A stretch of 41,267 nt of DNA from Nanobdellati archaeon (lineage in GTDB: Archaea; B1Sed10-29; JAGVWA01): NCBI GenBank assembly GCA_018304505.1, contig JAGVWA010000013.1, positions 1 through 41,267 on the forward strand. Reading direction: 5' to 3'. Shown one piece after another: positions 4,750 through 24,825 of the stretch. Position numbers and translations under genes: made by a program. Under the pieces are notes generated by a model that did not search any database, was not told where the DNA came from, and saw only the letters and a program-made list of their open reading frames with translations. Within the stretch, counting starts at the first letter, position 1, and each line of letters begins with the position of its first letter.

Positions 4750-4840
4750 AATTCTCACTGTTTGTGCCTAAAATAAGACGATAGGTATATTAAACTTTAC
4801 GTATTTATTGATTACTATAAATAGGGGTTTAGTGATAAAA
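4750..4840. promoter_or_regulatory. Divergent promoter region, uppS / pilus operon
   Basis: A 91-base A/T-rich gap between divergent genes. For the plus strand, CTATAAATA at 4815-4823 lies about 20-25 bases before ATG 4841, and AGTGAT is a plausible ribosome site. For the minus strand, a TATA-like TTATTTTA (reverse complement of about 4769-4776) lies about 20-27 bases before the uppS start. A further TATATTAA at about 4791-4798 could serve either strand. These are sequence matches only. Confidence 0.55.
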
Positions 4841-5443
4841 ATGAGCAAAAGTAAAGGATATTCGCAGATAACGACGTTTCTTTTCATCACGCTCATTATT
4901 ATCACAGCGACCACGGTGGCCTTTATTATTGGGCAGCCGTTTGCGGAGAGCCTTGACGACCCGCTCATCAAGAGCAGCTATGAAAAGCAAATGTCGGCCC
5001 TGGACACGGTAATCAGGGCCTCGGCGCACGGCGACATCAACTTTACAACAACGTACTCGTTTTTCCTGTATGGCGGAACCCGATCAGCGATCGAAATCGA
5101 TGCAAGGAATGACATTGTACGGCTTGTGTTCCGGCCGAAGCTTTACGGCGATTACCTCGGACAGAACTTAACAACGGACTGCAGCGACAACCCAACTTAT
5201 TACCAGGACCCTGAAACCAGGATCCCCTTAAGAAGATTCAACTTCGGCAACCCGAATATAGTCGAGACCATGTTCCTCGGCGGCTCTGGTGCAGAATCAG
5301 AAATCGTGCTCTGCTATGACGGAATCGATATTATAGAAAGCGAAGTGTGCGCTCCAGGAACTCAGCGATCAAGATCGGAAATGCGAGTCACAAAAACCGG
5401 GGCGAACTCGACATCACAGACACTAATGATTGGATTTTGTTGA
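4841..5443 (+). CDS. Pilin-like protein with class III-type leader
   Basis: First gene of the pilus-like operon. The N-terminus MSKSKGYSQITTFLF has a short basic leader ending in Lys-Gly, followed by a hydrophobic helix of about 20 residues (FLFITLIIITATTVAFIIG). This is the layout of archaeal type IV prepilins cut by a PibD/FlaK-type peptidase; cleavage after Gly6 is predicted. The remaining 165 residues form an exported domain with two N-glycosylation sequons and five cysteines. I do not recognise a named family. ATG 4841 is chosen over an in-frame TTG at 4808 because it has the nearer ribosome site and removes an unlikely leader extension. It could be a minor pilin or assembly protein rather than the major subunit. 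No prepilin peptidase is in the window. Confidence 0.8.
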   Translation: MSKSKGYSQITTFLFITLIIITATTVAFIIGQPFAESLDDPLIKSSYEKQMSALDTVIRASAHGDINFTTTYSFFLYGGTRSAIEIDARNDIVRLVFRPKLYGDYLGQNLTTDCSDNPTYYQDPETRIPLRRFNFGNPNIVETMFLGGSGAESEIVLCYDGIDIIESEVCAPGTQRSRSEMRVTKTGANSTSQTLMIGFC

Positions 5444-5448
5444 TTGAC

Positions 5449-5895
5449 ATGGATGACATAATGAGCCTGCTGTTTAGAAGCCTGATCCTGCTGGGAGCGA
5501 TAGCTGTCCTGAGCTTCCTCTATCAGGGCTACCTTGATGACCTGAAGCTTCAAAACCAGTACAATCGGGAGGACCAAATAGTCAATTTGGCGCAGGCCAA
5601 GGTGATGAAACTGCTGCGCAGCGTCGACGCGATCAACACCGAGGTAAATGAATCACTGATCTTGCCGGGGCTTGAACACGGCTACGAATTAACGATTTCC
5701 TGCGAAAGCGACGAAATCCATTATAAGGTGGCTAACGTGTTTACTGACAGGACCACAAAACAAGTTGATTACATCAACTGCTCGGCCATAAACTTTGATG
5801 GCGCGGTTGGCTCTGGCAACAACTGCCTCATCGGGAAATACGTTAATGAGACGAATTTAAACATTACACTGGAGGATTCGTGTGGCGCAAGATGA
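5449..5895 (+). CDS. Small single-pass exported protein of pilus operon
   Basis: A 149-residue protein with one N-terminal hydrophobic helix (SLILLGAIAVLSFLYQGYL, about residues 11-29) and an exported domain rich in Asn sequons, with four cysteines near the C-terminus. It lacks the Lys/Arg-Gly pre-helix motif of its neighbours, so processing as a pilin is doubtful. Position, size and topology resemble pseudopilin or minor-pilin proteins. It starts 5 bases after the previous stop; an ATG at 5461 would also work. Its end overlaps the ATPase start by 14 bases, which implies translational coupling. Function is inferred from operon membership only. Confidence 0.75.
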   Translation: MDDIMSLLFRSLILLGAIAVLSFLYQGYLDDLKLQNQYNREDQIVNLAQAKVMKLLRSVDAINTEVNESLILPGLEHGYELTISCESDEIHYKVANVFTDRTTKQVDYINCSAINFDGAVGSGNNCLIGKYVNETNLNITLEDSCGAR

Positions 5896-7702
5896 ATTAG
5901 AAGGCGTGCTGGAAGAGGTCACGGAAGGCAAGCAAAAAAAGAAGAAGCCTGTAAAGGCTGAAGCTGTCAAGCTCGGCACGGAAACGCCATCAGGCCAGCC
6001 CGAGGCCACTGAGGTCGAACTCAAGAAGCCCAAGGTAGTGGAGTTCCCGCACATCGAGGAAAGGCTTACCGAGACTAAAAAACCAGTTGCCAGCGCCGTT
6101 GTTGGGATGCCGAGCGGGATGATGGAGATTCCAGAGGAAGCGAAAGAAGCCAAGATAAGCACCGAATGGAGCGCGCAGGAAACAAAGGACGTCAACCTGC
6201 GCTATCCTTTGATAGAGCCATATGCCTATGCGAACATCAGATGGAATGATGACACTGAGGAGGTTATATACCACCTAATAGAACCGCCACTAACGAAGCA
6301 TGAAAAGGAGCTCAAGGAAAAGATCACCACGCTCATGATGGACCTGCTTGACATCAACCTTACAGCGATCAAGGACGTAGCGACTGTGAAGAACTACCTC
6401 AAGGACAAGCTAACGGAAATAATAAACGAGTATGAAATTCAGGTGTCTGACTCTGAATACAATAAGATAACGTATTACCTGTACCGCGATTTCCTCGGGC
6501 TTGGAAAAATCGAGCCAGTTATGCAGGACCTCGACATCGAGGACATAAGCTGCGACGGTAAAGGAATTCCATTGTACTTATTTCACAGGAAATTCGGGTC
6601 AATAAAAACCAACCTCTCCTTCGACACCGACGCGGACTTGAACAGCTTCATAATCAAGCTGGTCCAGCGCTCTGGAAAGCACATCTCGGTTTCTGAGCCC
6701 CTGGTTGACGCGGCGCTGCCAGACGGATCAAGGCTGCAAGCCACGTATTCGACAGAAGGAGACATATCAACAAGGGGAAGCACATTCACCATCCGGAAGT
6801 TCACCAAAGACCCATTGACCATCATCGACCTGATGAACTTTGGCACCATTCCAAGCACCATGGCCGCATACCTATGGATGGCGATCGAATACAAAAACTC
6901 AATACTGGTAAGCGGCGGCACGGCGACCGGAAAAACGAGTGCCATGAACGCATTGTCAATGTTCCTAACTCCGGAACTGAAGATCATCAGCATCGAGGAC
7001 ACCGCCGAATTAAGGTTACCGCATCAGCACTGGATCGCAAAAATCGCGCGCAGTGGCTACGGCCCGCCAACAATTACCGGAGAGCGCCGCGGAGAAGTCA
7101 GCATGTACGAACTATTAAGAGCCGCACTGCGAGAGCGCCCCGACGAAATAATTGTCGGGGAAGTCCGGGGAAAGGAAGCCTATGTGCTATTCCAAGCTAT
7201 GGCGACCGGTCATGCCGGTCTCGCAACGATTCACGGGGAATCAATGGAAGGCGTCGTCAACAGGCTCATAACTCCACCAATCAACCTGTCGGCGGGCCTG
7301 CTGCAGCAGCTAAACATAGTCATGATTTTGCAGCACGCAAAGATAAACAAAATCGACGTGCGCCGCGTTAAGGAGGTCATAGAAATCACGGGTGTGGAAC
7401 TCGAATCCAAATCCCCAATAGTGAACAGGCTATTCAAGTGGGTGCCTGCCGGCGATTACTATCAGTTTTCGAGTGACAGGAGCTACATTTTGAACAAGAT
7501 CCGCGAGGACAAAGGCGTGCCGGAAAAAAGCATCTGGGAAGAAGTCAACAGGCGCAAAGACGCCCTTGAGTGGATGAAGAACAACAACATCCGGTACTAC
7601 AAGGATGTCGGCGAGATCCTGGAAGCGTACCACAGGAACCCCGAAGAGGTCCTGAAAAAAGTTTACGGGCTGGGGAAGTATGGCAAGTCTAATATTCGGT
7701 AG
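5882..7702 (+). CDS. Type II/IV secretion (VirB11/TadA/PilT-like) ATPase
   Basis: Hexameric motor ATPase of the archaeal type IV pilus/archaellum superfamily, powering pilin assembly at the inner face of the membrane. Residues 1-100 are a charged Lys/Glu/Pro-rich extension. A helical N-terminal domain follows. The RecA-like core carries Walker A GGTATGKTS (345-353), an Asp box IEDTAELRLP (about 371-380), a Walker B region DEIIVGEVRG (421-430) and a His box (ATGHAGLATIHG, about 441-452). The GTG start is supported by GGAGG at 5871-5875, six bases upstream, and overlaps the previous gene. The 3' end overlaps the next gene by 23 bases. Two TadC-like genes follow, so this is a pilus or secretion machine. 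No archaellum accessory genes (such as FlaH) are seen. Confidence 0.93.
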   Translation: MAQDELEGVLEEVTEGKQKKKKPVKAEAVKLGTETPSGQPEATEVELKKPKVVEFPHIEERLTETKKPVASAVVGMPSGMMEIPEEAKEAKISTEWSAQETKDVNLRYPLIEPYAYANIRWNDDTEEVIYHLIEPPLTKHEKELKEKITTLMMDLLDINLTAIKDVATVKNYLKDKLTEIINEYEIQVSDSEYNKITYYLYRDFLGLGKIEPVMQDLDIEDISCDGKGIPLYLFHRKFGSIKTNLSFDTDADLNSFIIKLVQRSGKHISVSEPLVDAALPDGSRLQATYSTEGDISTRGSTFTIRKFTKDPLTIIDLMNFGTIPSTMAAYLWMAIEYKNSILVSGGTATGKTSAMNALSMFLTPELKIISIEDTAELRLPHQHWIAKIARSGYGPPTITGERRGEVSMYELLRAALRERPDEIIVGEVRGKEAYVLFQAMATGHAGLATIHGESMEGVVNRLITPPINLSAGLLQQLNIVMILQHAKINKIDVRRVKEVIEITGVELESKSPIVNRLFKWVPAGDYYQFSSDRSYILNKIREDKGVPEKSIWEEVNRRKDALEWMKNNNIRYYKDVGEILEAYHRNPEEVLKKVYGLGKYGKSNIR

Positions 7703-8582
7703 AACATATAGACAAGTGGCCCTAAAGTCTATGGGCGCCATGTACGACATAATAGAAAAAAACTTCAAGAGCGACGTAAAAAAGATGGCCCCATTGCTGC
7801 GACAATCCGGGCTGCACATGACAGTTGGGGAGTACGTGTCCGTGGCCATGCTCACAACAACCCTGGCGATTGTTTTTTCGCTCTACTTTTTCAGCATAAT
7901 CTTTTTCAATCTCTTTGCATTCCCTGGAATCGTGTCACTTGCGTTCACATTCATGATGACCTTCCTGGGCTTTGCTGCAAGCGTTGCTTTTTTTTATACC
8001 TACCCCGGCATCAGGATAAACGCTATAGAGCGGAGCATTGAACTGAACCTGCCATACCTAACGACGCACATGGGGACCATAGCCGGCACTGGTGTTCCGT
8101 TGCCCCTGATTTTTGAACTGGTCGGGCAATTTCAGGAATACGGGGTGCTTGCAGAAGAATGCAGAAAGATTGCTAGGGACACGCGCGTCTTTGGCATAGA
8201 CATCCTGACTGCGATGAGCAAGGCCGCGTCAGAGACACCAAGTCCGCATTTCAAGGAACTGCTGTGGGCCATGGTTTCTACGGTTCGCAGCGGCGGTGAT
8301 CTGCGGGAATTATTGCTCGGGAAGAGCAGGTCATTTCTTGAAATCCAGGAGACTGCAATGAATTCTTATGTTGAGTTTCTCGGGATCCTGTCTGAGATGT
8401 ACATCATAGGCTTTGTCAGCGCCCCACTATTCATCATTATACTAATAACTGTAATGAGCCTGATCACTCAGTTACCACTTCCGGCGTCTGCGTTGCTTGC
8501 GCTGATCATTTACATAGGCATGCCTATGGCATACTCCATGTTCCTGGTCATCATAAAAGTAACACGGCCAATAGGTGTATGA
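7680..8582 (+). CDS. TadC/FlaJ-like pilus platform protein (first)
   Basis: A 300-residue polytopic membrane protein of the type II secretion F / TadC family, the platform the ATPase pushes on. Two hydrophobic segments lie close together at about residues 58-75 and 85-110, and two more at the C-terminus (about 240-265 and 270-295). Between them is a cytoplasmic helical domain with the family pattern of a first F-domain half. Start ATG 7680 overlaps the ATPase end. The next gene encodes a second TadC-like protein. Archaeal pili often use either one long platform or two shorter paralogues, so the pair probably works as a heteromer. Confidence 0.87.
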   Translation: MASLIFGRTYRQVALKSMGAMYDIIEKNFKSDVKKMAPLLRQSGLHMTVGEYVSVAMLTTTLAIVFSLYFFSIIFFNLFAFPGIVSLAFTFMMTFLGFAASVAFFYTYPGIRINAIERSIELNLPYLTTHMGTIAGTGVPLPLIFELVGQFQEYGVLAEECRKIARDTRVFGIDILTAMSKAASETPSPHFKELLWAMVSTVRSGGDLRELLLGKSRSFLEIQETAMNSYVEFLGILSEMYIIGFVSAPLFIIILITVMSLITQLPLPASALLALIIYIGMPMAYSMFLVIIKVTRPIGV

Positions 8583-8585: not shown

Positions 8586-9815
8586 ATGACAGTAACTTCC
8601 ATTTTGAAAAGCCCTGCAAATACGACAATGATTTTCGGCATTGTAAGTTTCATAGCATCCTTGATTTACCTAAGCAACGAGGCCTACTTTTCTCTAGTTG
8701 CGGGCCTGAGCGCGGCTTTAATCGTGCTGCCAAAGTTCATTGAGGCGATGCAGGAATATCAAGAAGCAAGAACCATGGAAAAGTACTTGCCAGACTTCCT
8801 GAGGGAGGTTGCAGAAGCGCACAAGGCAGGCATGCCACTTCCAAAAGCCATAGCCACAGCCGCAGAGGGCAATTATGGCCCGTTGACTAAGCAGATGCGC
8901 ATTGTCGCCTCGCAAGTAAGCTGGGGCATGAGCTTCGACACTGCCTTGTTGCGATTAACCAAGAGGACTTCATCGCGCCTCATTAAACAAACCATGCGCG
9001 TCATCGTCGAGAGCTACCGGGCAGGGGGTGACGTTGCAAGCATCCTGGAAACCGTGTCAGAGGACATACGTTCATTAAAGCAGACAGAGTCAGAACGCAA
9101 GGAAAAATTCTCTGCCAATGTCGCAGTAACTTACGTGATCTTCTTCCTCTTCTTAGGCATCCTGATTGGGTTAGCCAACTTTCTCATTCCGCAGATGACG
9201 CAATTCAGCGCCTTCGCCCCGGCAATTGGTGGTGAATCCAGTCCGCCGACAGAAGCGGAGTACAAGGTTTTCTTTCTACACTTGATACTGATTTCCGCGT
9301 TCTTCAGCGGCATGGTTGCTGGTTTCATGAGCGAGAACTCGTTCCTCGCTGGCCTGAGGCACAGCTTTGTCTTAATGATAATAACGATATTAATCGGCCA
9401 GGTTTTCCTGAACCCGGCACCGCTTACGCAACAGCTCGGAAAGGAGATCTCTACAGTGCCGCCGAGCGGCATCCAGAAATTACAGCTAGGCGGAGCCACA
9501 GCCGAAAAGGTCGAGCCGCGATACAAGACATACGTATTGACAAAGGACATAACTACAGACCAAATCGTGAACAGCGTCAATGAAGAGATTGAAAAGGGCA
9601 TCACGTTCTTCGAAAAACCGATAACAAGCTCGCGAATTCAATTTAGGCAGGAAAAGTGCCTGGCGTGCGAGCGCGGCGACATAACAGTGAGAAAGCACCG
9701 TGTCATAGTTGGCGTTCCAACAAAAATCGCGTACAAGGTTGAGCAGGAAGGGGAAACCTTCATCGTGTTGATAAGGGACACGCCGGCAGAGATGAACGAA
9801 ACAGAAGGGGCTTAA
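8586..9815 (+). CDS. TadC/FlaJ-like pilus platform protein (second)
   Basis: Second platform-type protein, 409 residues. Residues 1-50 contain two hydrophobic segments. The cytoplasmic helical part follows, with PDFLREVAEAHKAGMPLPKA, the T2SS F-domain signature region. Hydrophobic segments recur at about 180-205, 235-255 and 260-280. A C-terminal tail of about 130 residues, unusual for the family, is soluble-looking and contains a CLAC pair (about residues 358-361). It begins 3 bases after the first tadC, with TGATC as a likely ribosome site. The tail could face outside and interact with pilins; that is inference. Confidence 0.85.
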   Translation: MTVTSILKSPANTTMIFGIVSFIASLIYLSNEAYFSLVAGLSAALIVLPKFIEAMQEYQEARTMEKYLPDFLREVAEAHKAGMPLPKAIATAAEGNYGPLTKQMRIVASQVSWGMSFDTALLRLTKRTSSRLIKQTMRVIVESYRAGGDVASILETVSEDIRSLKQTESERKEKFSANVAVTYVIFFLFLGILIGLANFLIPQMTQFSAFAPAIGGESSPPTEAEYKVFFLHLILISAFFSGMVAGFMSENSFLAGLRHSFVLMIITILIGQVFLNPAPLTQQLGKEISTVPPSGIQKLQLGGATAEKVEPRYKTYVLTKDITTDQIVNSVNEEIEKGITFFEKPITSSRIQFRQEKCLACERGDITVRKHRVIVGVPTKIAYKVEQEGETFIVLIRDTPAEMNETEGA

Positions 9816-9839: not shown

Positions 9840-10349
9840 ATGGCACAACTGATTGGCAGGAGAGGGAATTATAACTTTGACTTCATAATAGCCCTCGCGT
9901 TTTTTCTGGGATTCTATGCCACGATTTTCACCATACTGCCATATTACGAGGTGCAGCCGACAATTATCGAAGACCCACTTAAAGAGGAATCAGCATACCT
10001 TGAACACGTCTTAATCAGAACCCCAGGATACCCATCTAACTGGACAACCCTCTCTGAAGTGCAACGAATCGGGCTGGCTGTTGAAAATGAAACAATAGAA
10101 TACGGCATACTCGACAGCAACAAGGTTCTCGCAATCAATGCGCAGGACTGCAGCGCCTTGCAGCACCTATCTGGGATAACAACGAACTTCAAGATACGCA
10201 TAGAAACAGGCAGCACAAGCTATGAGTGCAACACCTCGATTTCAGGCGCTGCGCGGTACCTCGAAAAACCAGTAAGCATACGCGAGGACAACGCAACCGC
10301 AATGACGGTGGCTTATGAAACGGGAAAAATAAGGATATGGATCTGGTGA
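9840..10349 (+). CDS. Pilin-like protein with Arg-Gly leader
   Basis: A 169-residue protein starting MAQLIGRRGNYNFDF and continuing into a long hydrophobic helix (FIIALAFFLGFYATIFTIL). The RRG followed by a hydrophobic stretch resembles a class III prepilin leader, with predicted cleavage after Gly9. The exported part contains four Asn sequons and two cysteines. AGGGG at about 9827-9831 precedes the start. The next gene begins 7 bases after the stop. Probably a minor pilin. It has no named domain that I recognise. Confidence 0.78.
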   Translation: MAQLIGRRGNYNFDFIIALAFFLGFYATIFTILPYYEVQPTIIEDPLKEESAYLEHVLIRTPGYPSNWTTLSEVQRIGLAVENETIEYGILDSNKVLAINAQDCSALQHLSGITTNFKIRIETGSTSYECNTSISGAARYLEKPVSIREDNATAMTVAYETGKIRIWIW

Positions 10350-10356: not shown

Positions 10357-12504
10357 ATGAAACGCGGAATGATGTACATGCTTGAGGCCATACTGGCCAT
10401 TTTTATATTGTTCAGTTTCCTGGTGAACATTGAAAAGCCGATAACGCCGCAGGTCTCAAATGTAGGCAACGAACCGCGGCTCTTCGAATTCGCGACAGCA
10501 GCAACCCAGATCCTCTGCAACAACCAGGACCTAAGGGCGTACCTTGCTAATGACACGCTGCAATTCACGAACCTCACGTCATACCTGCCAGAAGACCTCG
10601 GCTATGCATTCTACCTCTTCAACCAGTCAGGAAACTTGACCGACAGCTTCATCATTGGAGAAAGAGAACGCGATGCCGAAACCGTGGGCCTGTGGCACTT
10701 CAATGAAAACCAGGGCACACAGGCAAAGGATTATAGCGGCAACGGTTACCATGGAACCCTCGCAGGAACATCATTGCCGCAGTGGGACACTGGAAAACTT
10801 AATTATGCCCTCAACACAACCAACGCAGGAACCACCAATAATGGAAACAGGGTCACTACCAGTTACCGTGAGTCAATGGGTTCCGAAGGCACGATCATGT
10901 TCTGGTTATACATAAACCTGTCAAGCGAGCAATACCTAATCTCAAGAGGATATGACGGCTACTCGCTCAGGATACTTGGGCAGAAAACCCAACTGCGCGA
11001 CGATAATCAATACATTGCAGGCAACGCGCCAACATCAGCCAATGTCATCCCACTAAACACATGGACCCATGTCGCTTTTACATGGGGCCCGACCAACGGC
11101 ATCAGGATATTCCACAATGGCGTTCAAGAAGCAAGCGCAAGCTCAGCAACCGGGGAACTGTGGGCGCCGCGGGCAACTGACACGAACCTGACAATGATGG
11201 CCCGCGCAGGCACTGGAAACATTGAAAATGACAACGCCTTGCAAGGAAAAATGGACGAAGTGATCTTCCTAAGCACGGAGTTGAACAGCTCGCTGATACT
11301 CGAGGCGTACACGAGCCAGACGGCAGACACATCCGGTTTAGGAAATGAAACTACCGCAAGCAGCTCATGCATCATAAGCGGCTGGCTGAACCCAGTACCG
11401 GGGCTGCTGACAGACCACTTCACAGACAACTCGCAAAACAACACCCTGAACAACGTCACAATAGACGAGTTCACCACCTTCAATTCTTCAGGCGGAACGC
11501 AAGAAGAATCAATAGCCCTAGCTGGAAACATTCCTGAAACTGACGCAAACACGATCACCCTGTTGCGCCTTGACGAGACATCAGGAACCACGGCATTTGA
11601 TGAAACCGGAACTAACAACTTCACAGTAACAGCGCCCAACAGAACAAATGGACGCTTCAACATTGCGCTGAACTTCACCAATGACGGCTTCAACGACGGC
11701 AACGCGAGGGCGTACTTTGAAGCAGCCCGCAATCTCCAAACCCCATTAAAGAACTTCACGTGGGCCGCTTGGGTGTACAGAACAGGGGCAAGCGATGACA
11801 GCCCCGTACTTTTCGAAGAGCGTCAGCTTAGCGGTGGTGATAACACGCTCAATGTTTTCTTACGCGCACTATCCACTGGTGTAGTACAATACATACACTC
11901 AAACTGTACAAACAGCTACTCAAGCAGTGTAATCACATCAACCGGCGCAATCCAAACCGGGGCTTGGGCACACTTGGCATTTGTCAGAAACGGCACAAAT
12001 CTAAAGATCTACGTCAACGGAGTTGTGAAAGCCAACAGCGTAATAGCAGCGGACTACTGCACCACAGGCACGCGGCGCTGGAACTTAGGAGAGGGTAACT
12101 GGAGGAACACGGACTTTCAAGGAATCATTGACGAAGTCCTAATACAAAACACGGCCATGTCTGAACAGGAAATTCAGGCACTCGCTGCATTCAACGGCAC
12201 TTTACTTAGCAAGCAAATCAGCAGGCAGGACGCAAACTTCACGACAATTGAAATCACTGAAACTGATGCCAGCGGATTCTTAACAATCGACATCGTGAAC
12301 GCGTCTGACACGTCTCAAGTGCTCGTGGCGAACGTGAGCAATGGTACAGACATATCGAATGCCAACGACAATATTATAGTGCGCGCGAACTTCACAAGCA
12401 ACGGATCATACTTCCCAACGCTTGACTACTGGGCGGTTAGCCTAGACAGGCAGTACTTCACGTACGCGCCAAAAAAAATCACAGGGGCATTCTGGAATAG
12501 ATAG
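10357..12504 (+). CDS. LamG-domain pilin-like protein (candidate pilus adhesin)
   Basis: A 715-residue protein that begins like a prepilin: MKRG, then the hydrophobic helix MMYMLEAILAIFILFSFLV, giving predicted prepilin-peptidase cleavage after Gly4. After about 100 residues come two LamG/concanavalin A-like lectin domains: about 108-320 (starts VGLWHFNEN, contains WTHVAFTW and GKMDEVIF) and about 400-620 (starts TLLRLDET, contains WAHLAFVRNG and GIIDEVLI). A beta-rich C-terminal segment of about 95 residues follows. Such domains bind glycans or proteins. It has many Asn sequons, so it is probably glycosylated. GGTGAG at 10346-10351 is the ribosome site. Its position between pilin-like genes and its leader suggest it is built into the pilus, perhaps at the tip. 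The binding target is unknown. Confidence 0.85.
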   Translation: MKRGMMYMLEAILAIFILFSFLVNIEKPITPQVSNVGNEPRLFEFATAATQILCNNQDLRAYLANDTLQFTNLTSYLPEDLGYAFYLFNQSGNLTDSFIIGERERDAETVGLWHFNENQGTQAKDYSGNGYHGTLAGTSLPQWDTGKLNYALNTTNAGTTNNGNRVTTSYRESMGSEGTIMFWLYINLSSEQYLISRGYDGYSLRILGQKTQLRDDNQYIAGNAPTSANVIPLNTWTHVAFTWGPTNGIRIFHNGVQEASASSATGELWAPRATDTNLTMMARAGTGNIENDNALQGKMDEVIFLSTELNSSLILEAYTSQTADTSGLGNETTASSSCIISGWLNPVPGLLTDHFTDNSQNNTLNNVTIDEFTTFNSSGGTQEESIALAGNIPETDANTITLLRLDETSGTTAFDETGTNNFTVTAPNRTNGRFNIALNFTNDGFNDGNARAYFEAARNLQTPLKNFTWAAWVYRTGASDDSPVLFEERQLSGGDNTLNVFLRALSTGVVQYIHSNCTNSYSSSVITSTGAIQTGAWAHLAFVRNGTNLKIYVNGVVKANSVIAADYCTTGTRRWNLGEGNWRNTDFQGIIDEVLIQNTAMSEQEIQALAAFNGTLLSKQISRQDANFTTIEITETDASGFLTIDIVNASDTSQVLVANVSNGTDISNANDNIIVRANFTSNGSYFPTLDYWAVSLDRQYFTYAPKKITGAFWNR

Positions 12505-12519: not shown

Positions 12520-12837
12520 ATGATGAAAGGACTGAAAAACGGAATGAAAAAGGGAACGCGGGGAATGCAGCGAGGACAACTGATGATTATCATGGCGCTA
12601 GTGCTGGTTTTCTTGACTGCACAGTTTATCGGGGTTTACGTGACAGACATTGCCACAGAACAAGAAACGCAAAACTCGCGTATTGACACGCAGTCAATGA
12701 TCATTACGAACATCGAAAAGGAACTCACGTTAGTGGTATCGATGGACCCGACAAACGACACCAGGATTGACGAATTCATAAACTTCTCAGTTGATTACGC
12801 TGCACAGCGCGGCTTTGACTTAAACATAACGACGTGA
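12520..12837 (+). CDS. Small pilin-like protein
   Basis: A 105-residue protein with a basic leader rich in Lys/Arg-Gly, ending QRGQLMIIM, and a hydrophobic helix (LMIIMALVLVFLTAQFIGVY). Cleavage after Gly19 fits a class III prepilin. The mature part is only about 86 residues, acidic and helical, with two Asn sequons at the end. AGGTGG at 12509-12514 is the ribosome site; the ATG at 12523 is an equally placed start. Of the pilin-like proteins here, this one looks most like a simple structural subunit in size. That is inference. Confidence 0.75.
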   Translation: MMKGLKNGMKKGTRGMQRGQLMIIMALVLVFLTAQFIGVYVTDIATEQETQNSRIDTQSMIITNIEKELTLVVSMDPTNDTRIDEFINFSVDYAAQRGFDLNITT

Positions 12838-12843: not shown

Positions 12844-14256
12844 ATGAAAAGATTACTCATCGCACTAATACTATTGCTTCCAATGGCCTATGCCCCCCAG
12901 ACATTTGAAGATTTTTTCGACAACCAATCCTTTATTGATGAAATAAACAATCTAGAGATCTCTAACAGCGCCGCGCAGATATCAGGAGCCAACACGACCG
13001 GTAATTTAACATCTATCGAAATCTCGGCGCCAAGCAACCACCTCATAACCTTTACTTACAACACATCAAATGCCACGGAGGTCCAGCCTGACGACTTCAC
13101 AACGGGTTTGTGGCATTTCAATGGCACTACTGCAGAAGCTAGCGGAAACGGCAGCACGGCCTCCCTGCAAAATGGAGCTACGTTTTCTACAGGCTTATAC
13201 GGACAGGGTCTTTACCTTGACGGGATCAATGATTGGGTTGAAACAAACACTGGCACGATAGCCACCTCCGGCACTGTTGAGCTCTGGTTCAAGCCAAACG
13301 TGAATCTGCCGATTTCAGGCGGCGTAGTGAACAGGTACATTTTTAGCAGGATCGACGCGCGCCCCAATGCATTTATGGTGCCTGACGGCAGGATAGTGTT
13401 CAATCTCTACACAGGCAGCCACCAGTACGCGTTCTCAACTACCAACTCATGGCAAGAAGGCAGATGGTACCACTTGGCATTCACATGGGCCCCAGGAACA
13501 ATGAGCACCTATGTCGACGGCACCAAGCAGGCAACGACAACATACAGCGGCAGCATGGACACGCTCGCAGGAACATGGAGACTTGGATTGAGCTTCAGCA
13601 CTGCACAGCCACCGAATGCAACAATTGACGACTTTGTTTTATATAATTATCCAAGGACTGCGCAAGAGATCCTTGATGCGGCAAGGCGTGACAACATTTC
13701 AATCAGCATTCTCAATTCAAGCGACAACTCGACCATAATTAGTGACACATCAAATGGCACCGACTTGACATACCTGGCCGGCACCACCATACGCCTCTTT
13801 GCGGGGCTCTTCAAGGTAGGCACAAAATTCCTTGATGAATGGAAAATCACTTCAATCGAAAACATTTCAACGCGTGGAACCAGCGGCTTCGTTTCAGTCT
13901 CGCCAAGAAAGCCATTCATTGATGAAATCGTTACATGTGAAAACTCAACAGACTTCGGAGAAAACCTGACCTATCGGTGGTTCATAAACTCTATTGAACA
14001 GCTTGATGAGAACTCCTCAACCCTCGACTTGACAGGCCTCGCCTCGATAGGTGACATTATCCAATGCTCAATAACCTCAGCAAGCGTTTCTGAAAGATTC
14101 TCTCCAGAAACCGAAATCGGGGCATGTAACGTGAACATCAAGTGTTCAACCAGCCAGTGCAACAAGCGCCGCGACTTCACCATATCGATTTCTCCAAAAT
14201 CCGGCGCGCAAACCATTGCACATAGTACGTTCAAGCGCGTTTGTTACGCTTCCTGA
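12844..14256 (+). CDS. Secreted LamG-domain protein
   Basis: A 470-residue secreted protein. A classical signal peptide (MKRLLIALILLLPMAYA, cleavage after about residue 17) replaces the prepilin leader of its neighbours. A LamG domain spans about residues 82-280, beginning GLWHFNGTT, with WYHLAFTW and the conserved ending IDDFVLYNY. An Ig-like segment with a disulfide-type Cys pair and YRWFIN lies at about 345-425. The last 45 residues are Cys/Arg-rich and unlike the rest. There is no membrane anchor, so it may be shed or held by the pilus or S-layer. GTGAT overlapping the upstream stop (12834-12838) serves as ribosome site. Last gene before a new promoter region, so probably the end of the pilus operon. 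Confidence 0.82.
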   Translation: MKRLLIALILLLPMAYAPQTFEDFFDNQSFIDEINNLEISNSAAQISGANTTGNLTSIEISAPSNHLITFTYNTSNATEVQPDDFTTGLWHFNGTTAEASGNGSTASLQNGATFSTGLYGQGLYLDGINDWVETNTGTIATSGTVELWFKPNVNLPISGGVVNRYIFSRIDARPNAFMVPDGRIVFNLYTGSHQYAFSTTNSWQEGRWYHLAFTWAPGTMSTYVDGTKQATTTYSGSMDTLAGTWRLGLSFSTAQPPNATIDDFVLYNYPRTAQEILDAARRDNISISILNSSDNSTIISDTSNGTDLTYLAGTTIRLFAGLFKVGTKFLDEWKITSIENISTRGTSGFVSVSPRKPFIDEIVTCENSTDFGENLTYRWFINSIEQLDENSSTLDLTGLASIGDIIQCSITSASVSERFSPETEIGACNVNIKCSTSQCNKRRDFTISISPKSGAQTIAHSTFKRVCYAS

Positions 14257-14273: not shown

Positions 14274-14390
14274 TACTATATATACCCATGTTGCGCCTAT
14301 ACCCACATTGCGCCCCCATTTAACCCCTGCAGAGTGACAACCGGGAAAACATTTATATACAACATAAAGGAAAAGGTATCCAGAATAATA
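14274..14390 (+). promoter_or_regulatory. Promoter region with two TATA-like boxes
   Basis: The 134-base gap after the pilus operon has two TATA-like stretches: ACTATATATA at about 14275-14284 and ATTTATATAC at about 14350-14359. The second is about 32-41 bases before ATG 14391 and would give a very short leader. A 17-bp tandem repeat (14281-14314) lies between the boxes. The surface-protein genes downstream are therefore probably transcribed separately from the pilus operon. Confidence 0.55.
14281..14314. repeat. Imperfect 17-bp tandem repeat, two copies
   Basis: 14281-14297 and 14298-14314 are directly adjacent 17-base copies matching at 15 of 17 positions (TATACCCATGTTGCGCC versus TATACCCACATTGCGCC). 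They overlap the first TATA-like box and sit upstream of the second. A paired protein-binding site is possible. No regulator is identified. Confidence 0.65.
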
Positions 14391-16262
14391 ATGCAACAAT
14401 TACCAAAGGGGCAACGGGACATGGACAAACTCAAAATTCTCGTAAACGCAATGCTTACTATAATATTACTAGCGCAGCTCGGGCTATCTTCGGTAACAGT
14501 CCTGTTTCCGCCAAGCAAACTCGACGCTGGAGTTCCCAGTTCGCAGATGCAGGTAATGCTCGCAGGAGGCCCTTACCAGGACATCACATTAAGCGTGTCC
14601 TCTCCGGGTTGCATCACATTCAACTCAACGCAGGAAACCATTACCGGCCCAGTAGGCCCATTCCCATTCTACATAGACTTCGAGATAAACGGCACCCAAC
14701 AGAGCTTATGCGAAGTCACTGTCGCAATGACGGCCACTGACAACGGCGCAGGGGGCGCGCAGGTAAACCAGACGTCTGATCCGGTTTACATAACAATATA
14801 CCCCAACACTATAATAACCACACAGACCTACTTCGACAAAGCGTACTTAGTGACAAATGAAACCAATAACGTTTACATTAACGTCACAAATTCAGGAATA
14901 GGGCAGGCCACCAACATCACGGTCTCATTGTCAGTAAACGAGTCAGACAACATAACACTTACAAATGTAACACAGGTCATCGATGTTCTCAACGAATCAA
15001 GCACAGCAACACTTTTTTTCAGAGCAAACCCAAGTGAGCTGCAGAACTTCACATTCAACTCGAACTTTTCATACAACAAAAACACGAGCACTGGCGCTCA
15101 ATTCGATACTGACAACACTACAACAACCATGCTTTCACAGCCCGGCTTCAGGGACCTTGCAATCGCAAGCATTGAAACCGACTCGCCACTACGGGACCTT
15201 AGCGGCACAGTAACAATAACCATAGCCAACTACGGAGAGGTCACAGAAAACAACAGGACACTATCCTTATACTTGAACGGCAACAGCACCGGAAATGTAT
15301 CTGTAAACATGACTCCTGGTGAATCACAACAGCACAACTTCACATTCATATCAGCAGCAAACAATTCAATAACAGCAAGCATCGAAGAGCTGCCAGACGA
15401 CGTAAACCTGAGCAACAACAACATGACCCTCACTTACATCCCACCTGCGCCTGGAGTGCCGGCCCAGCCAAAAGAAGAATTCATAGACACAAGCAGCGGT
15501 GGACCTGTCGGAGGTTCAGCAACACAGGGCAGCCAAAAAACTTTCCAAATCGCAAACGTCGACAGTGGCGAGCAAAAACAATTATCTGTGAACTCACAAA
15601 ACCTGCAAAGCCTTACAGTGACATTCGCAAATCAGATTGACAGTGCAAAAATAATAGCCATAACACACAGCTCAACAACGCTAATGCAGCTTCCGAGCGA
15701 CTTCACGGCAATACAGTTCTTCCAAATAGAAACCGAATCCCTGCCCGCAGGGTCAATAAGCTCTGCAACGATTAACTTCAAGGTATCAAAATCACTGCTA
15801 GAAAGCAACAATGCTAAACCTGAATCGGTGTTTGCCCTGCACAACAACAACGCACAATGGATACTATTGCCAACAACCCTCGTTGACGAGGACAGCGCGT
15901 TCTATTATTATGAGGCCCAGACACCATCATTCAGCTACTTCGCCATATCGTTTGTTAAACCACAAGCTGAAACGCAGGAAGGGCCCGGGAACACAAGCAC
16001 ATCACAAACAAGTGAAGAATCAACATCACAACAGCTAGACCCAACAGGATTAGTGTCAAAGGAAACAGGCACTGTCTTAAACACTACAAAGCAAACAAAC
16101 GAAACAAAAACCACAAGTGATAGCGGCACTTCAATCACCGGCGAGGCCATCCTTGGGGGCTACGGCAACATTGCCATAGGCCTGGCAGTGCTCGCCTTGT
16201 TAGGATACGGATATTTCAGATACGTAAAGCCACGCAATGGCAAACGCAGGATGAGGTTGTAG
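14391..16262 (+). CDS. Surface protein with CARDB-like repeats and PGF-pre-PGF domain
   Basis: A 624-residue membrane-anchored surface protein. The signal sequence lies at about residues 11-35 (KILVNAMLTIILLAQLGLSS). Beta-sandwich segments like CARDB domains follow, at about 145-240 and 255-340. About 377-523 matches the PGF-pre-PGF domain of archaeal S-layer-type proteins: late motif FKVSKSLLESNN, then WILLPTTLVDEDSAFYYYEA and FSYFAIS. A Thr/Ser/Gln-rich stalk, one transmembrane helix (about 583-610) and a basic tail (KPRNGKRRMRL) complete it. The usual PGF motif for archaeosortase processing is absent, so it is probably held by the helix itself. ATG 14421 is an alternative start. The giant repeat protein gene starts one base after the stop. 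Confidence 0.82.
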   Translation: MQQLPKGQRDMDKLKILVNAMLTIILLAQLGLSSVTVLFPPSKLDAGVPSSQMQVMLAGGPYQDITLSVSSPGCITFNSTQETITGPVGPFPFYIDFEINGTQQSLCEVTVAMTATDNGAGGAQVNQTSDPVYITIYPNTIITTQTYFDKAYLVTNETNNVYINVTNSGIGQATNITVSLSVNESDNITLTNVTQVIDVLNESSTATLFFRANPSELQNFTFNSNFSYNKNTSTGAQFDTDNTTTTMLSQPGFRDLAIASIETDSPLRDLSGTVTITIANYGEVTENNRTLSLYLNGNSTGNVSVNMTPGESQQHNFTFISAANNSITASIEELPDDVNLSNNNMTLTYIPPAPGVPAQPKEEFIDTSSGGPVGGSATQGSQKTFQIANVDSGEQKQLSVNSQNLQSLTVTFANQIDSAKIIAITHSSTTLMQLPSDFTAIQFFQIETESLPAGSISSATINFKVSKSLLESNNAKPESVFALHNNNAQWILLPTTLVDEDSAFYYYEAQTPSFSYFAISFVKPQAETQEGPGNTSTSQTSEESTSQQLDPTGLVSKETGTVLNTTKQTNETKTTSDSGTSITGEAILGGYGNIAIGLAVLALLGYGYFRYVKPRNGKRRMRL

Positions 16263-16263
16263 A

Positions 16264-19200
16264 ATGTTTAGCAAAAAAATAAGCACCCTGATCATTGTTA
16301 TGCTCCTATTCAACGCCACCATAGGCTACGCAGCTGCGCTTGACAGCGTCACCGCATTCGGCAAAGCCACTGGGGGTTTCCTGAAAAAAACAGGCAATGC
16401 CCTGGACAAGTACGCAGCAGAGCCGCTGAAAGACGTGGGTGGTGCTGCAATTGCGGCAAGCAGCAGTGCAAAAAACAACGTCGTGTCAAAGATAGTTAAA
16501 TCAAGCGCGGTGGGCAAAATCACCAGCTCTACCAAGACTATTGGAAAGGAAATCAAAAACAGCATCACTGACACTATTAAAAAACCCCTACCCAACATTG
16601 ACACATCATCTCTTTCAAAACTATCACCAATTGGCTCGACAAAAGCGCAATCAACTATTACAACTGCACCTAACGCCAGTAAACTCTACGGCCCAACCAA
16701 ACCGACCATGGGTACACCTATGGCTGTTATTGACGCATACCTCTGTGGCTCTGCTGACGGGGGCTTTGTTGAGGGTAGTAAAAACATCAGCTTGACAAAT
16801 GGCAAGACTTACCGAATATGCGTCGTGTACCGAGACAACAATGGTCTACCCATCCTTAGAATGGACGCTAAATTAAACGCCTCATTATTTGGGGAAATAA
16901 AATATCTTAAAAATCATGATGGCATTTTCGAATTCGAATTCACCCCAAATCAGATAGGCACGGTTTCTGCAACCTTCACCTTAATTGGCGACACCTGGCC
17001 AAAACCCAAAGCAGTTCAAGGAACATACACAACTGACCTTGTGATTAGCGAAATAAATAAACTATATTCGCCGTATATCCACGCAATAAAAGACATTACT
17101 ACCAAATCAGGTGCTGGCCAGACAATAAACCTGAAGGACTACGTTGTTGATCCTGACACAAGCCTTGACGACCTGCAATTCACGGTTTCCAGTCCAAGGG
17201 ACCTAAATGTAACCCTCAATAATGAAAACAAAGTGTTAACAATAAAAATACTTCCCAGAACCACGGACGGCGTCAGATGGGTGCCACTGACAGTGACCGA
17301 CCCAGAAGGCAACTCGGGCACTAGAACAATCAAGGTCAACATCAAGAACACTGTTAAGGCAGACAAGTGGTGGGGCGAGTTTTTGGGGGGATCAAAAAAC
17401 AGTATACAAAACGTTGGCTTGTGTGCAGACCCAAATGCAAAGGACGATGACGGCAGAATCACTGTATTCGACAATCAAGTATACGAGGTCTGCTTGTACT
17501 TCAAGGAAGATGACGATTGGAAAAAAACACTCTGGCAAGACGGGGAATACACTGACTATCAGCACGGCACATTGAAAATGAAGAAACGCACGGGCAGCAC
17601 GTTCAAGTTCGAATGGACCCCAACGGCAATAGAAACAACGCAGGAGTTTGTTGATGTCACTTTTAAAATAAACTACAAAACAAAGGGCTTGATTTTCAAG
17701 AGCCCGACCTTCACAAAAGAGTACACCCAACGATTCGTGATAAAGCACGCTAACAGGCTGGCTATTGAACCCTTTCCGATACAGCTATACGCAGGCAGTG
17801 GCGCCAACAGCATCTCACTAGACAGTTTACTACCAGAGCAAACCAGAGCGCAAATCACTGCATATCCAACCGGCGTTCTTCAATGGGAAGTTGAATCAGA
17901 CAATGAAAATGTTGATGCAAAAATCGAGAACGACGCATTGATAATAACGCCAAGAAGCGGCTTCAGCGGGCCGGTAACCCTAAACCTTACTGTAAAAGAC
18001 GGCTATGGCGCCAGCGTGACATCGCAACTCAGCTATGACGTGACTAGCGTGAATGACGCGCCAGAGATCGCTAAAAAGACCATACCACTAAACGGCCAAA
18101 AAGGATCACCCCTCGAAGTAGTAATAGAACTTGATGACAAGGACAGCAGCAGCTGGACCGCAGGGGGCAACCTGTTCCAACAAAAGAGCATCACTGACAA
18201 AGTAATAACACTTCAGTATTCCCCGACTGATGCTGACGTGCAGGCTGGCAGAATAACAGATACTATAACAATAACTGATGATAACGGGGCATCAATAACT
18301 GTTGACGTGTCAATACAAATTGAAGACGTGCAAATCGATGACATAACTGATGATGTACCGCCAGTCGACGAGATAACCCCAACAGGGACCCAAAATTTAG
18401 CCCCTGTTTTTAACAGCATTGCTGACCAAACTACGGATGAGGACACCCCCTTGATGATAACGCTGATAGCAACTGACGCGGAAAATGACACAATAATATT
18501 CACAGCAGCCTCTGTGAACAACGTGGTTGCGACAATAGAGAATAATCAATTAACAATAACTCCAACAACCAACTGGCATGGTGTCGTACCGGTGCAAATA
18601 AACGCAAGCGACGGAGAACAAACAACAACGCAAATGATTGCTGTAACCATAGCGCCAATAAATGACAACCCAATAATTGACATTACACCCTCAGTAATAC
18701 CAACCGACATCGCACACATAAGTACTCCAATTCAACTCAAATTAAAGATCACGGACATTGACGGAACAATAACCACTGTTAGAGGAAACAGGTTTATCTA
18801 CCAAGGCACCCAAGACGACATCTACACCCTTCAATATTACCCAATGCAACAAGACCAAGACAGAGGAAACATTACCGACACGATCACGGCAATAGACAAC
18901 GACGGCGGCACCGCCACACTCCAAGTCAAATTCAACGTGTACCAGCCCCCAGCAAATCAAGCGCCAGTAATTAATTCAATATCTGAAGCCTTCTCGGAAC
19001 TTGACACGATAACAATGTATGAAGACACGCCATTTTCAGGAACGATCAACGCAACCGATGCTGATAACGACCAACTAACATACTCAGGAACTGGCTCCAT
19101 AAATCTCCAAGTCTCAGTCAACACAGACGGGGCATACACCATCACGCCTGCACAAGACTTCAACGGAACAGAAAGCATAACCCTACAAGCCAGTGACGGC

Positions 19201-22200
19201 ACACTAACAACCGAACAAAGTGTGACAGTGACAGTAAACCCTGTAAACGACGCGCCAACAATCCAAACAATACCAGACCAAACCACGACAGAAGACAACG
19301 CACTAATAATACCAATAACAATAAACGACGTTGACAACGCCGCAACAGAGTTGGCAGTAGTCACTAACAGCACATTTGAAATATCTGCATCAACAACGCA
19401 AATAGAATTGCTGTACACCGAAGGGGTACTAAGCGACTCAGTACTAGTAACAGTCACTGACGGTATCAACGTTTCCTCAACAACATTCAGTGTTATAGTA
19501 ACTCCAGTAAACGATGCTCCAGTAATTAATCTTGCAGGCTCTACCATACCCCTAACTGGCCAACAAGGCCAAACAATCGAACTCAGGATAAAAGCAACAG
19601 ACGTAGACAGCACAACATTGACGCCAAAACAAATTGGAAAATTCGTGTACAAACCCGAAATCATAGACACTGACGGTCGCTTCGTGTTCCACCACTACAT
19701 AAGCCAAGCAGATGACGCCCTTGGAACGCTCACAGACACCATAACGATTGAAGACAATAATGGCGGGGCAGTAAGTGAAACAATATCAATACCCCTTACA
19801 GGGGTCAACTTCGCCCCAGTACTAACCCCCATAGGCAACCAGGAAACTGATGAGGACACACCATTAACACTAACCTTAACGGCAACCGACGCTGATGATG
19901 ACGAATTAACATTCTCAGCAACAAGCTCAGCCAACCTGGCCGCGGAAATAACGGGCTCAACAGCAACAGTCACGCCTGCACAAAACTTCAACGGCGCAGA
20001 AAACATAACAATCTCCGTAACAGACAACACAATAACAATAAACCAAACAGTCCTAGTAACAGTAAAACCAGTAAACGACGCACCAACAGTAAGTTCAATA
20101 CAAGCCATCACATTCCCAGAAGACACCACATACACAGCACTAAACCTGGATGACTTTGTCACAGACATCGAAAGCCCAGACGCACAAATAACCTGGACAA
20201 ACTCAGGAGAAGCCAACATAACCATAATCATCGACCCCGCAGGACACAACGTATCACTAACACCAAACGCTAACTTCAACGGAATCGAAACAATAACATT
20301 CACAGCAACAGACCAAGGCGGAGAAAGCGACTCCACAACAGTAACTGTAACAATAACACCAGTCAACGACGCGCCGGTAATAAGTAATATAATAGGGGAA
20401 ACAAACGTAAATGAAGACACAACATACTACTATGAAATAATAGCAACAGACGAAGACAACACAACAACAGAACTAACATACACAAGCAACGACACAAGAT
20501 TCACAGAAAACACAAAAGGAAACTTCACATTCACGCCAACACAACAAGACACAGGAGGACCAATTAATGTTAAATTCACAGTAACTGACGGAAGCTTACA
20601 AGCAGAACAAACACTAACCCTCACAGCAAACAACATCAACGACGCACCCACCATCCAAACAATACCAGACCAAACAGCCACAGAAGACAACCCACTCATA
20701 ATACCAATAACAATAAACGATGCAGACAACGCCACAACAGAACTAACCATAACAACAAACAGCCAATACGAACAAAACACAAACACAACACACATCGAAC
20801 TACTCTACCCCAATGGCGTAACGAGCGATACCATAACAGTAACAGTAAGCGACGGCCAACTAAACAACACAACAACATTCCAAATAACAATAAACCCAAT
20901 AAACGACGCACCCACCATCCAAACAATACCAACACAACTCGCAACAGAAAATGAAACACTAACAATCCCCATAACAATAAACGACGTTGACAACGCCGCA
21001 ACAGAACTAACAGTAACAACAGACAGCACCTACACGCAATCAGTCAACACAACGCATATAACGTTGCTGTACGACAACACGTTCACAGCGACATACGAAG
21101 AAATCACAGTCATGGTAAGCGACGGCACAGACTCAGCAACAACGTCTTTCATTGTAAACGTCGGCGCAGTCAATGACGCACCCATAATCAGAAACATAAT
21201 CGGGCCAGCAACCATCTATGAATACCAGGAATACAATTACACAGTAAACGTTACTGATCCGGACAATCCCTCAAATGACCTTAACTATTCAGCAGAGTAT
21301 ATCCTAACCGAAACCTACGAATACGCAGACGGAACCGTTGAGTCCTATGCCCTTTGGCCAACATATGCCCTCGATGAAGTGCCAGGGCAGAAAGGCATGT
21401 TCACGCTTGAATACTGGATGGCCTTACCCACATCGTCTGTCTACGTGCCAGAGTCTGTCCTAGGGATAAACGCAATGGTAAACCTGACTTCGCAGATAGT
21501 GTTCACTGTAACTGACGGCGAATTCACCATCACATACCCCTTCGATTTGGCGACAAACGACGTGCCTGAATTGCCATGGGCAGTATCAACGGCTGAGTTA
21601 AGCAATTCTACAGTCACCTTCCAAACTTCCATCGACAGCATCATTGACATACAGGAAGATGAGGCATACACAATAATGCTCACGGTGCAAGACCCTGACA
21701 TTCCAAACTCCGTGAACTTCACGTTGAATGACTCGCGCTTCACCCTGGTAAACGAGGTCTACCTGTTAGGCTTCTCAAACTTCATACCACAAAACACCAA
21801 GACTTACAGCTTCACGTTCACACAATCAGGAACACAGAACGTTCTAATGAATGTAACAGACACACAAGGAAATTCAGTAGAGTACACCATCGTGTTCAAC
21901 GTACTTGGCATCAATGACGCGCCAGTTATAACCAACGTGCTTGGAAACACCACCTTTGACGTAGGATTCTTGTCAGCATTCCAGGTAATAGCAACTGACG
22001 AAGAAAACAACGCATTGACGTACAGCGCGACATCTGTACCTGGGATAGCAATAACACAGGCAAGCAGCAGTAACAACACGATCATGCTAAACGCAAGCCC
22101 GAGCCTCGCTGGACAGCAGGCAAACGTTACATTTAGCGTGTCAGATGGCACAAACACAACAAACACAATGGTAACAATGACCATGACACAAAGAGACACA

Positions 22201-23424: not shown

Positions 23425-23450
23425 ATACCACGTATTACCTAATTTTCCAA
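23420..23450 (+). promoter_or_regulatory. TATA box overlapping giant gene stop
   Basis: TATAAATA at 23420-23427 overlaps the stop codon of the giant gene and lies about 24-30 bases before ATG 23451. It would give a leaderless transcript of the DUF192 gene. A similar AAATAAAAA at about 23832-23840 precedes the next gene (ATG 23863) at the same distance. Confidence 0.5.
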
Positions 23451-23837
23451 ATGGCACGAACACATGCAGCCCAAACAGAACGAACACACGCAACCAAAAC
23501 ACACAACCTGGGCTCATACGAAACACTCACTAGCGCAATAGCGAAGGCTCGCGGGCTGATGTTCAGGAAGCGCATTGACAAGCCCCTGCTATTTATATTA
23601 AATTCCGAATCGCGCATAGCAGGCTCAATCCACTCATTCTTCGTGTTCATGCGCTTCGACGCCATCTACCTCGACAGCAAGGGAACTATTGTAGACCTGA
23701 TCCCGAACATACATCCTTTTACGCCCCTGATTGTTCCAAAAAAACCAGCTAAGTACCTCATTGAAGCGCGGTCAGGCACAATAACAGCTCACAAACTGCG
23801 CCTGAATGACAAGGTAAAGCCACCCATAAAGAAATAA
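23451..23837 (+). CDS. DUF192 (UPF0127) family protein
   Basis: A 128-residue protein. Residues about 20-115 match the DUF192 fold: AKARGLMFRKRIDKPLLFI at the start, then FFVFMRFDAIYLDSKGTIVDL and a proline-rich turn, and KYLIEARSGTI near the end. The function of the family is not established; many members are exported, but this one has no signal peptide. The first 18 residues are Thr/His-rich and probably unstructured. The gene follows the giant surface protein with its own TATA box and may be co-transcribed with the two genes downstream. Confidence 0.82.
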   Translation: MARTHAAQTERTHATKTHNLGSYETLTSAIAKARGLMFRKRIDKPLLFILNSESRIAGSIHSFFVFMRFDAIYLDSKGTIVDLIPNIHPFTPLIVPKKPAKYLIEARSGTITAHKLRLNDKVKPPIKK

Positions 23838-23862
23838 AAACCACAAACACCACAAATAAGGC

Positions 23863-24426
23863 ATGGCAAAAGGGAAAACGCACGCATTTGGCGGGAAGGT
23901 CTTTTCGGAAATACCAGCAGAGATACTCAACAAGCTCGGGGTCAAGGCAGGCGACACAATCGAATTCCTCAACCCCTACGGCAACCTTGTTCTATTAAAG
24001 CCGAACAGCAATCAGGTAGTAGAAGCACAGCAACAAACGCATGCTCAGATAACAGAGCCAGAAATCGTGACGCCAAAAAGCAAAACGAGCGCACCATCGA
24101 AGGGCATCTCGGTTTTGGCAAAGGGCTACGCTGTGGTTGAAGACCACACTGAAGTCCAGAATCTGACAAGCCAACTAAAAATGCAAAACAAAGACCAAGA
24201 CGTTATCGGCGTCAGGGGTTTTGACAAGAGATACTACATAATATCCAAAGAAAAACTAAGGGACACTGAAAGCGCGATTTCTAAAATCATGGACAGTGAA
24301 AAGAACTTCTCAGAGCTCCTCAATTCATCCGGGCTTGAAGAGGACCTCCTGCGGACAGCCATCGAAGTAATGCGAGAAGAAGGCTCAGTAATCGAGAAAA
24401 GAAAAAACGTGTATGTGATGGCTTAA
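23863..24426 (+). CDS. AbrB/SpoVT-like DNA-binding protein with C-terminal helical domain
   Basis: A 187-residue protein. Residues 1-48 look like an AbrB/MazE swapped-hairpin DNA-binding domain (EIPAEILNKLGVKAGDTIEF, then GNLVLLKP). A linker of about 40 residues rich in Gln and Thr follows. The C-terminal part, about 85-187, contains a short alpha/beta segment (VIGVRGFDKRYYIISKEKL) and a final segment shaped like a winged helix (SSGLEEDLLRTAIEVMREEG, then a wing to the end). This suggests a regulator with two nucleic-acid-binding modules. It overlaps the next gene by one base (TAATG). The target is unknown. ATG 23863 sits about 25 bases after an A/T-rich box, suggesting a leaderless message. 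Confidence 0.65.
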   Translation: MAKGKTHAFGGKVFSEIPAEILNKLGVKAGDTIEFLNPYGNLVLLKPNSNQVVEAQQQTHAQITEPEIVTPKSKTSAPSKGISVLAKGYAVVEDHTEVQNLTSQLKMQNKDQDVIGVRGFDKRYYIISKEKLRDTESAISKIMDSEKNFSELLNSSGLEEDLLRTAIEVMREEGSVIEKRKNVYVMA

Positions 24427-24776
24427 TGACAAATGTGCTAGTACCGATAATTACTGGACTGGAAGCAGACCAGGCATTCATCGACAAGCTGAAAGAATAC
24501 GACAAAATCGTGCTGCTGTTCGTGGCAGACTCCAACGATAACATAAAAACGGGCTCCATTGGCGCCAGGATAAAAAAAGCCGAAGCGACAATTGAGGGTA
24601 TGAAAAAGAAACTCAAAACCAAGAACGTAGTCGACTATTTGGAGTGGGGCTCGTGGGAAGACAAGGCCAGAAACATTTTCAAAAAAGATGAATGCAAGGA
24701 CATTATTGTCAGGGACAAGCGCGCATCTAAGTTGTTTGAGGACATCAAGAAAGCCAACGTTTATGTATATTCATAA
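24426..24776 (+). CDS. Small protein of unknown function
   Basis: A 116-residue soluble protein with no family I recognise. The N-terminus (VLVPIITGLEADQAFIDKL, then KIVLLFVADSN) reads like a Rossmann-type beta-alpha-beta unit of the universal-stress-protein or HUP kind, and the C-terminus (CKDIIVRDKRASKLFEDIKK, then VYVYS) like its closing strands. The start codon overlaps the stop of the AbrB-like gene, so the two are translationally coupled and may act together. Confidence 0.65.
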   Translation: MTNVLVPIITGLEADQAFIDKLKEYDKIVLLFVADSNDNIKTGSIGARIKKAEATIEGMKKKLKTKNVVDYLEWGSWEDKARNIFKKDECKDIIVRDKRASKLFEDIKKANVYVYS

Positions 24777-24782
24777 CCAAAG

Positions 24783-24817
24783 ATTACTGAATATTACTGA
24801 ATATTACTGAATATTAC
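24783..24817. repeat. 10-bp tandem repeat between convergent genes
   Basis: The unit ATTACTGAAT occurs three and a half times without mismatch (24783-24792, 24793-24802, 24803-24812, then ATTAC). It fills most of the 49-base gap between two convergent genes. It might mark the transcription end or simply be a slippage tract. Confidence 0.85.
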
Positions 24818-24825
24818 ATGCCCGC

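Follow-up and report, generated by a model that had tools for sequence, protein, structure and literature searches.

The window analysed here, a stretch of 41,267 nucleotides, carries on its forward strand a tight run of genes in the order pA, pB, ATPase, two TadC-like genes, pC, pD and pE, and the seventh of them, pD, is the subject of this study. The run begins with pA (4838..5443, +), the first gene of the conserved operon, which encodes a pilin-like protein with the leader KG/YSQITTFLFITLIII (the slash marks the predicted cleavage point, here and below) and whose homologues occupy this position in nearly all relatives of the class. It is followed by pB (5455..5895, +), a small membrane-anchored pilin-like protein whose start is set at the ATG at 5455; phmmer detects same-position homologues in G002-G005, while other relatives have small ORFs at a pB-like position without a significant match. 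The assembly ATPase of FlaI/TadA type (5882..7702, +) matches PF00437 (T2SSE) with E=6.6e-37, and scores 409 bits against the FlaI-type NCBIfam model, which is under the model cut-off of 550. The two TadC/FlaJ-like platform proteins both match PF00482 (T2SSF), the first (7680..8582, +) with E=6e-18 and the second (8586..9815, +), for which the alignment is class-wide, with E=1e-19. Between them and pD lies pC (9840..10349, +), a minor pilin-like protein starting with RRG/NYNFD... and without insert in the window, and after pD comes pE (12520..12837, +), a small pilin-like protein with the leader RG/QLMIIMALVLVF and same-position homologues, whose weak match to TadF (E=0.003) is under the cut-off. 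On the whole, the parts of an archaeal type IV pilus operon are present, namely the T2SSE ATPase, the T2SSF platform proteins, the prepilins and a genomic prepilin peptidase; the genome has two Peptidase_A24 prepilin peptidases, both outside the operon. The preliminary description had placed pD in a pilus operon, and the ATPase and the two TadC-like genes bear this out.

The gene following pE after a gap of 6 bp (12844..14256, +) encodes a protein with one LamG domain (PF13385, E=4.5e-22) and, as judged by eye, a Sec-type signal, in agreement with the earlier report of a second, conventionally secreted LamG protein at this place. It matches the trailing module of the second insert of pD (see below) with 34.5% over 55 aa (E=2.8e-6). 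Because the evidence consists of the short operon gap and this common module behind the LamG domain, a partnership is only suggested, and the protein may be a partner of pD or an independent surface lectin. Beside the operon, at 14390-23424 of the window, a secreted CARDB protein, which has a PGF-pre-PGF domain and a hydrophobic segment at its C-terminus, is followed by a 2386-aa cadherin/Big_9 surface protein. Neither the PilY1 beta-propeller nor the archaeal DUF2341 is found by Pfam in the ten window proteins scanned. The genome as a whole (0.92 Mb in 21 contigs, about 93% completeness) has eight related ATPase loci, and nine LamG matches across six ORFs. In the same genome, a LamG protein on contig C9 (L200:5730-18000) has the class III-type leader SRGQLSLEVLV and is encoded next to an ATPase/TadC set and a prepilin peptidase, another on contig C21 (L202:1958-3913) has the class III-type leader RKGQGAFEYIMTYGW, and a 6858-aa open frame on contig C4 (about 22556-32242, -) with three LamG matches is a candidate for a very large surface protein.

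LamG domains within a pilin-like core

The gene pD (10357..12504, +) is one uninterrupted ORF of 715 aa with an ATG start. The Pfam scan detects Laminin_G_3 (PF13385) in two stretches with 134.6 bits (E=4.1e-39), and the whole-genome search places LamG1 at 10843-11289 (60 bits) and LamG2 at 11710-12177 (95.5 bits) of the window. Both exceed the curated cut-off of 27.6, and the 715-residue protein with two LamG domains given in the preliminary description is thereby recovered exactly. The N-terminus, MKRG/MMYMLE... (that is, MKRG/MMYMLEAILAIFILFSFL), has R at -2 and G at -1 followed by a hydrophobic tract, and an acidic residue at +6, as in nearly all orthologues. It fits an archaeal class III/prepilin-type leader, for which the rules are G, A or S at -1, a charged residue at -2 and then a hydrophobic tract (PMC4371748), and cleavage is predicted. 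No match is obtained to the Pfam pilin leader motifs including IPR012902 (N_methyl), as expected for an archaeal leader, or to NCBIfam. The nearest solved sequence relative of LamG2 is an arabinanase, in its C-terminal region (E=3.9e-8), and by sequence LamG2 also resembles an S-layer-domain protein; these resemblances are compatible with carbohydrate or surface binding, and are no proof of it. A recent tandem duplication of LamG1 and LamG2 was considered and rejected, the identity being only 28%.

Aligned with its orthologues, the protein falls into three core parts separated by two inserts. Core part 1 (10357..10668, +; residues 1-104) comprises the class III-type leader, the N-terminal helix, Cys54 and strands b1 and b2, and gives a 46.8-bit match to the HMM of the short-pD family over residues 1-97. 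Insert 1 (10669..11343, +; residues 105-329), with LamG1, stands between b2 and b3 and is missing from every orthologue of the class in the alignment. Core part 2 (11344..11394, +; residues 330-346) is strand b3 with Cys338 and the motif ASSSCIISG. Insert 2 (11395..12456, +; residues 347-700) stands between b3 and b4 and consists of a leading module, LamG2 and a trailing beta module, after which core part 3 (12457..12504, +; residues 701-715 plus the stop codon) supplies the C-terminal strand b4, YAPKKITGAFWNR. With PSSMs built from relatives only, on block columns picked on an alignment including the window protein, core part 2 scores 21.3 bits (runner-up site in pD, 8.3) and core part 3 scores 18.9 bits (runner-up, 2.3). 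None of 683 unrelated ORFs reaches either score, nor does any of 3000 shuffles for the former or of 20000 for the latter. pD thus retains all elements of the short family: the N-terminal helix, the LCN cysteine, b1 and b2, the SSSCIIS strand and the C-terminal strand. We hold with high confidence that it is a complete short minor-pilin-like protein with both LamG cassettes inserted internally. The leader and the LamG domains of the preliminary description stand, while its simple fusion of the one to the other does not. An assembly chimera is rejected, as a single frame spans all five segments and the last insert precedes the C-terminal core strand; the GC content is also even across pD (0.44-0.52). 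Cys54 and Cys338 are the only cysteines of the core, and since both are kept together among relatives and lost together in G004, a disulfide between them is predicted.

The structure models are in line with this division. The model of a short orthologue (mean pLDDT 88.6) has an N-terminal helix, further helices and a four-stranded sheet with strands at 82-89, 95-100, 109-122 and 126-141 (b1-b4), and the N-terminus does not model as the simple anchor that would have told against a pilus adhesin. Placed on this model, LamG1 would fall in the b2-b3 loop, and LamG2 with its flanking modules in the b3-b4 loop. The AlphaFold model of the full 715 aa, the whole-protein prediction proposed earlier, succeeds in part: its mean pLDDT is 46, with the three core pieces confident (mean 90 at residues 331-340, 87-89 for core part 3, mostly high for core part 1) and the LamG inserts of low confidence. 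The alignment behind it already includes the short family and is without depth over the LamG regions, which accounts for confidence being limited to the core pieces. A Foldseek search with the model of the short orthologue finds no pilin among solved structures at E<=1e-3, and in the PDB the short-pD profile has a single match, to a PilA, that falls short of significance (E=0.23), which leaves the pilin fold unproven. The pilin-like family DUF7288 is matched by two members of the short-pD alignment (best E=4.6e-6).

Relatives in the class and in other DPANN groups

A search with residues 1-116 detects pD homologues in 13 other genomes of the class, whose members are labelled variously as Diapherotrites, Micrarchaeota or DPANN group archaeon. 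All 13 adjoin pilus genes, just downstream of TadC2, with pC between them where the gene call is resolved. Ten are short and free of any large insert, measuring about 126-147 aa when counted from the leader. The other three bear different inserts, in the b3-b4 loop for G002 and G007 and before b1 for G005, and none of these inserts has a Pfam match. LamG matches occur somewhere in 10 of the 19 genomes of the class. Many relatives have a large secreted protein directly after pE. Just downstream of the operon, several have a second secretion ATPase, which bears 4Fe-4S ferredoxin domains fused at its N-terminus and is followed by TadC-like genes: Pfam detects Fer4 together with the T2SSE ATPase at L026:12801-14423, L032:12586-14148 and L034:15845-17500, and L029 and L039 have similar N-termini. 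A redox-linked filament ATPase would be unusual. In addition, the pilin at the pE position is far longer in L027:7132-8382 (-) and L039:5860-9480 (-), with 416 and 1206 aa, and that of L039 contains an MG2 (alpha-2-macroglobulin) domain (E=2.4e-8), to which L027 has a weak match; these proteins are possibly further modular pilins.

Outside the class, the short-pD profile has a match in 39 of 87 genomes in the phylum of G098, and at least 14 of the matches listed lie within open frames of >750 aa. In most of these frames the match is confined to about the first 70-110 positions of the profile, with a very large insert behind it. Each of the 13 complete giants examined has a Trp among its last six residues; for unrelated ORFs the count is 57 of 691. 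VWA is present in 12 of the 13 giants; seven of these also have LVIVD propellers, and L172 and L173 also have two LamG domains. The pD-like giants L170-L182 (760-1700 aa), with VWA and the LVIVD beta-propeller inside a pilin-like frame, are reminiscent of bacterial PilY1. In the group of archaeon GW2011_AR5, where other records bear the label Aenigmatarchaeota, the short-pD profile has a match in 126 of 156 genomes; among the matches listed, 65 of 150 are in frames of >=250 aa, and two long proteins, L194 and L195, contain LamG. By their profile matches, for which single-genome searches give E values between about 1e-3 and 1e-19, and partly by their position after pC, these distant proteins are likely, though not certainly, related to the short-pD family. 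Actually, the neighbouring gene is affected as well: the pC homologues of G184 and G187 bear an inserted LamG between the motifs 'G.P..W' and '.IGL' with the C-terminal strand intact. From these sequences, minor pilins of such operons appear to have acquired LamG more than once. That the insert might be unique to the source genome is rejected, comparable insertions being found in other DPANN genomes, and the architecture, called unusual before, is to this extent less singular. As to whether homologues occur away from pilus genes, which had been raised as a point against a pilus adhesin, there are none in the class, and some long pD-like genes (L192-L198) do so in the GW2011_AR5 group.

Proposed function and rival explanations

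The sequence shows the leader, the operon, the orthology with the short family, the insertion at two internal sites, the LamG identity and the recurrence in other lineages, and it is reasonably probable that pD is an adhesive modular minor pilin of an archaeal type IV filament, with the two LamG cassettes as its binding heads. The working of such a pilin we infer as follows. A prepilin peptidase would cleave the pilin body of ~130 residues, and the ATPase/TadC machine encoded just upstream would assemble it into the filament. Because the inserts are so bulky, pD is proposed to be present in probably few copies, at or near the filament tip. The cassettes would stand out from the head at its b2-b3 and b3-b4 loops, with the likely Cys54-Cys338 disulfide stapling the head, and would bind glycans or glycoproteins on a partner cell, a host or a surface.

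Three other explanations were weighed against this one. Were the helix a plain anchor, pD would be a membrane-anchored lectin displaying LamG on the cell surface, with no filament involved. The hydrophobic N-terminal helix and the long relatives away from pilus genes would suit such a lectin, and cleavage and assembly of pD are predicted but unproven. However, the leader motif is conserved, the place beside the pilus machinery is kept in 13 of 13 class relatives, and the whole pilin-like head, for which a plain anchor has no need, is conserved around the inserts, and we regard the anchored lectin as unlikely. The genes downstream invite a different idea, in which pD is a pseudopilin of a short T2SS-like piston and its LamG domains are receptors for cargo, that is, for the secreted LamG, CARDB and cadherin-like proteins. 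Genes 12844, 14241 and 16264 indeed encode secreted or surface proteins, and the large secreted protein just after pE in many relatives also points this way. Yet the N-termini of these proteins are of the ordinary Sec type, there is no outer membrane to be crossed, and the domain content of the genes is not conserved; we consider the piston very improbable.

LamG domains also serve structural roles, and those of pD might have as their target the glycosylated S-layer of the same cell, or sister pili, and serve in bundling or S-layer anchoring instead of partner recognition. Of the 25 N-glycosylation sequons of pD, 16 fall in insert 2, so that the organism's own surface proteins may be glycosylated, and many further LamG proteins are encoded in the same genome. 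Nothing argues directly against such self-binding, which sequence cannot separate from binding to a partner; we consider it quite unlikely all the same. We retain the adhesive modular minor pilin as the favoured explanation. As a tentative and possible extension, pD and pC would form a general archaeal display scaffold, into whose head loops exchangeable LamG, VWA and beta-propeller modules are inserted again and again, and the modules would set the partner or host cells to which DPANN archaea attach. If true, these modules would act much like phage receptor-binding proteins.

Known systems and significance

The closest known systems are the bacterial modular pilins PilB and PilC of Streptococcus sanguinis, and by analogy pD would play the same role. 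The lectin module of PilC binds sialylated and sulfated glycans, with display at the tip modelled (PMC9934059), and the vWA module of PilB binds host proteins and is likewise modelled at the pilus tip (PMC8179133). PilC is a minor pilin with Ig-like and concanavalin A-like lectin modules, and pD, a probable minor pilin, likewise carries a lectin-like module of the same broad superfamily. The modules of PilC, however, are C-terminal to the pilin body, whereas the two LamG domains of pD lie in internal loops with the C-terminal strand kept, and the machinery and leader are bacterial in the one and archaeal in the other. The modular pilins of Raynaud et al. 2021, PilB among them, resemble pD in that a domain not specific to pili is added to a small pilin or pilin-like body; in the bacterial proteins the frequent modules include PF13385 and vWA (PMC8179133), and VWA is common to PilB and the related DPANN giants. 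That census used the bacterial motif IPR012902, and cases like pD fall outside it because pD does not match the bacterial leader motif.

In archaea, Makarova et al. 2016 describe type IV pili loci that combine an ATPase, TadC, minor pilins and adhesins (PMC4858521), and the pD locus, with putative minor pilins and a putative adhesin, has the same set, though pD is distant from any named archaeal pilus subunit, and the text of that survey mentions neither lectin, laminin nor concanavalin. For the ARMAN-related archaeon Mia14, the accessible part of the report describes LamG genes as expanded, some of them linked to type IV pili loci, and in that part, unlike in pD, LamG insertion into a pilin body is not described (PMC5498576). 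Neither are such insertions described in the open-access papers searched on LamG and pilins in DPANN and on archaeal modular pilins.

Our analysis extends the idea of modular pilins from bacteria to archaea, with insertion into internal loops in place of C-terminal grafting, and the pili of both groups make use of the same kinds of domains, namely lectin, VWA and propeller. To the question of partner recognition in small symbiotic archaea, pD contributes a defined candidate: its syntenic family allows a direct comparison of short and insert-bearing members, and the exact boundaries of the insertions permit the domains to be expressed and tested. Overall, the results suggest that the pD family is a repeated host for binding modules, by which these archaea may arm their pili with exchangeable heads.
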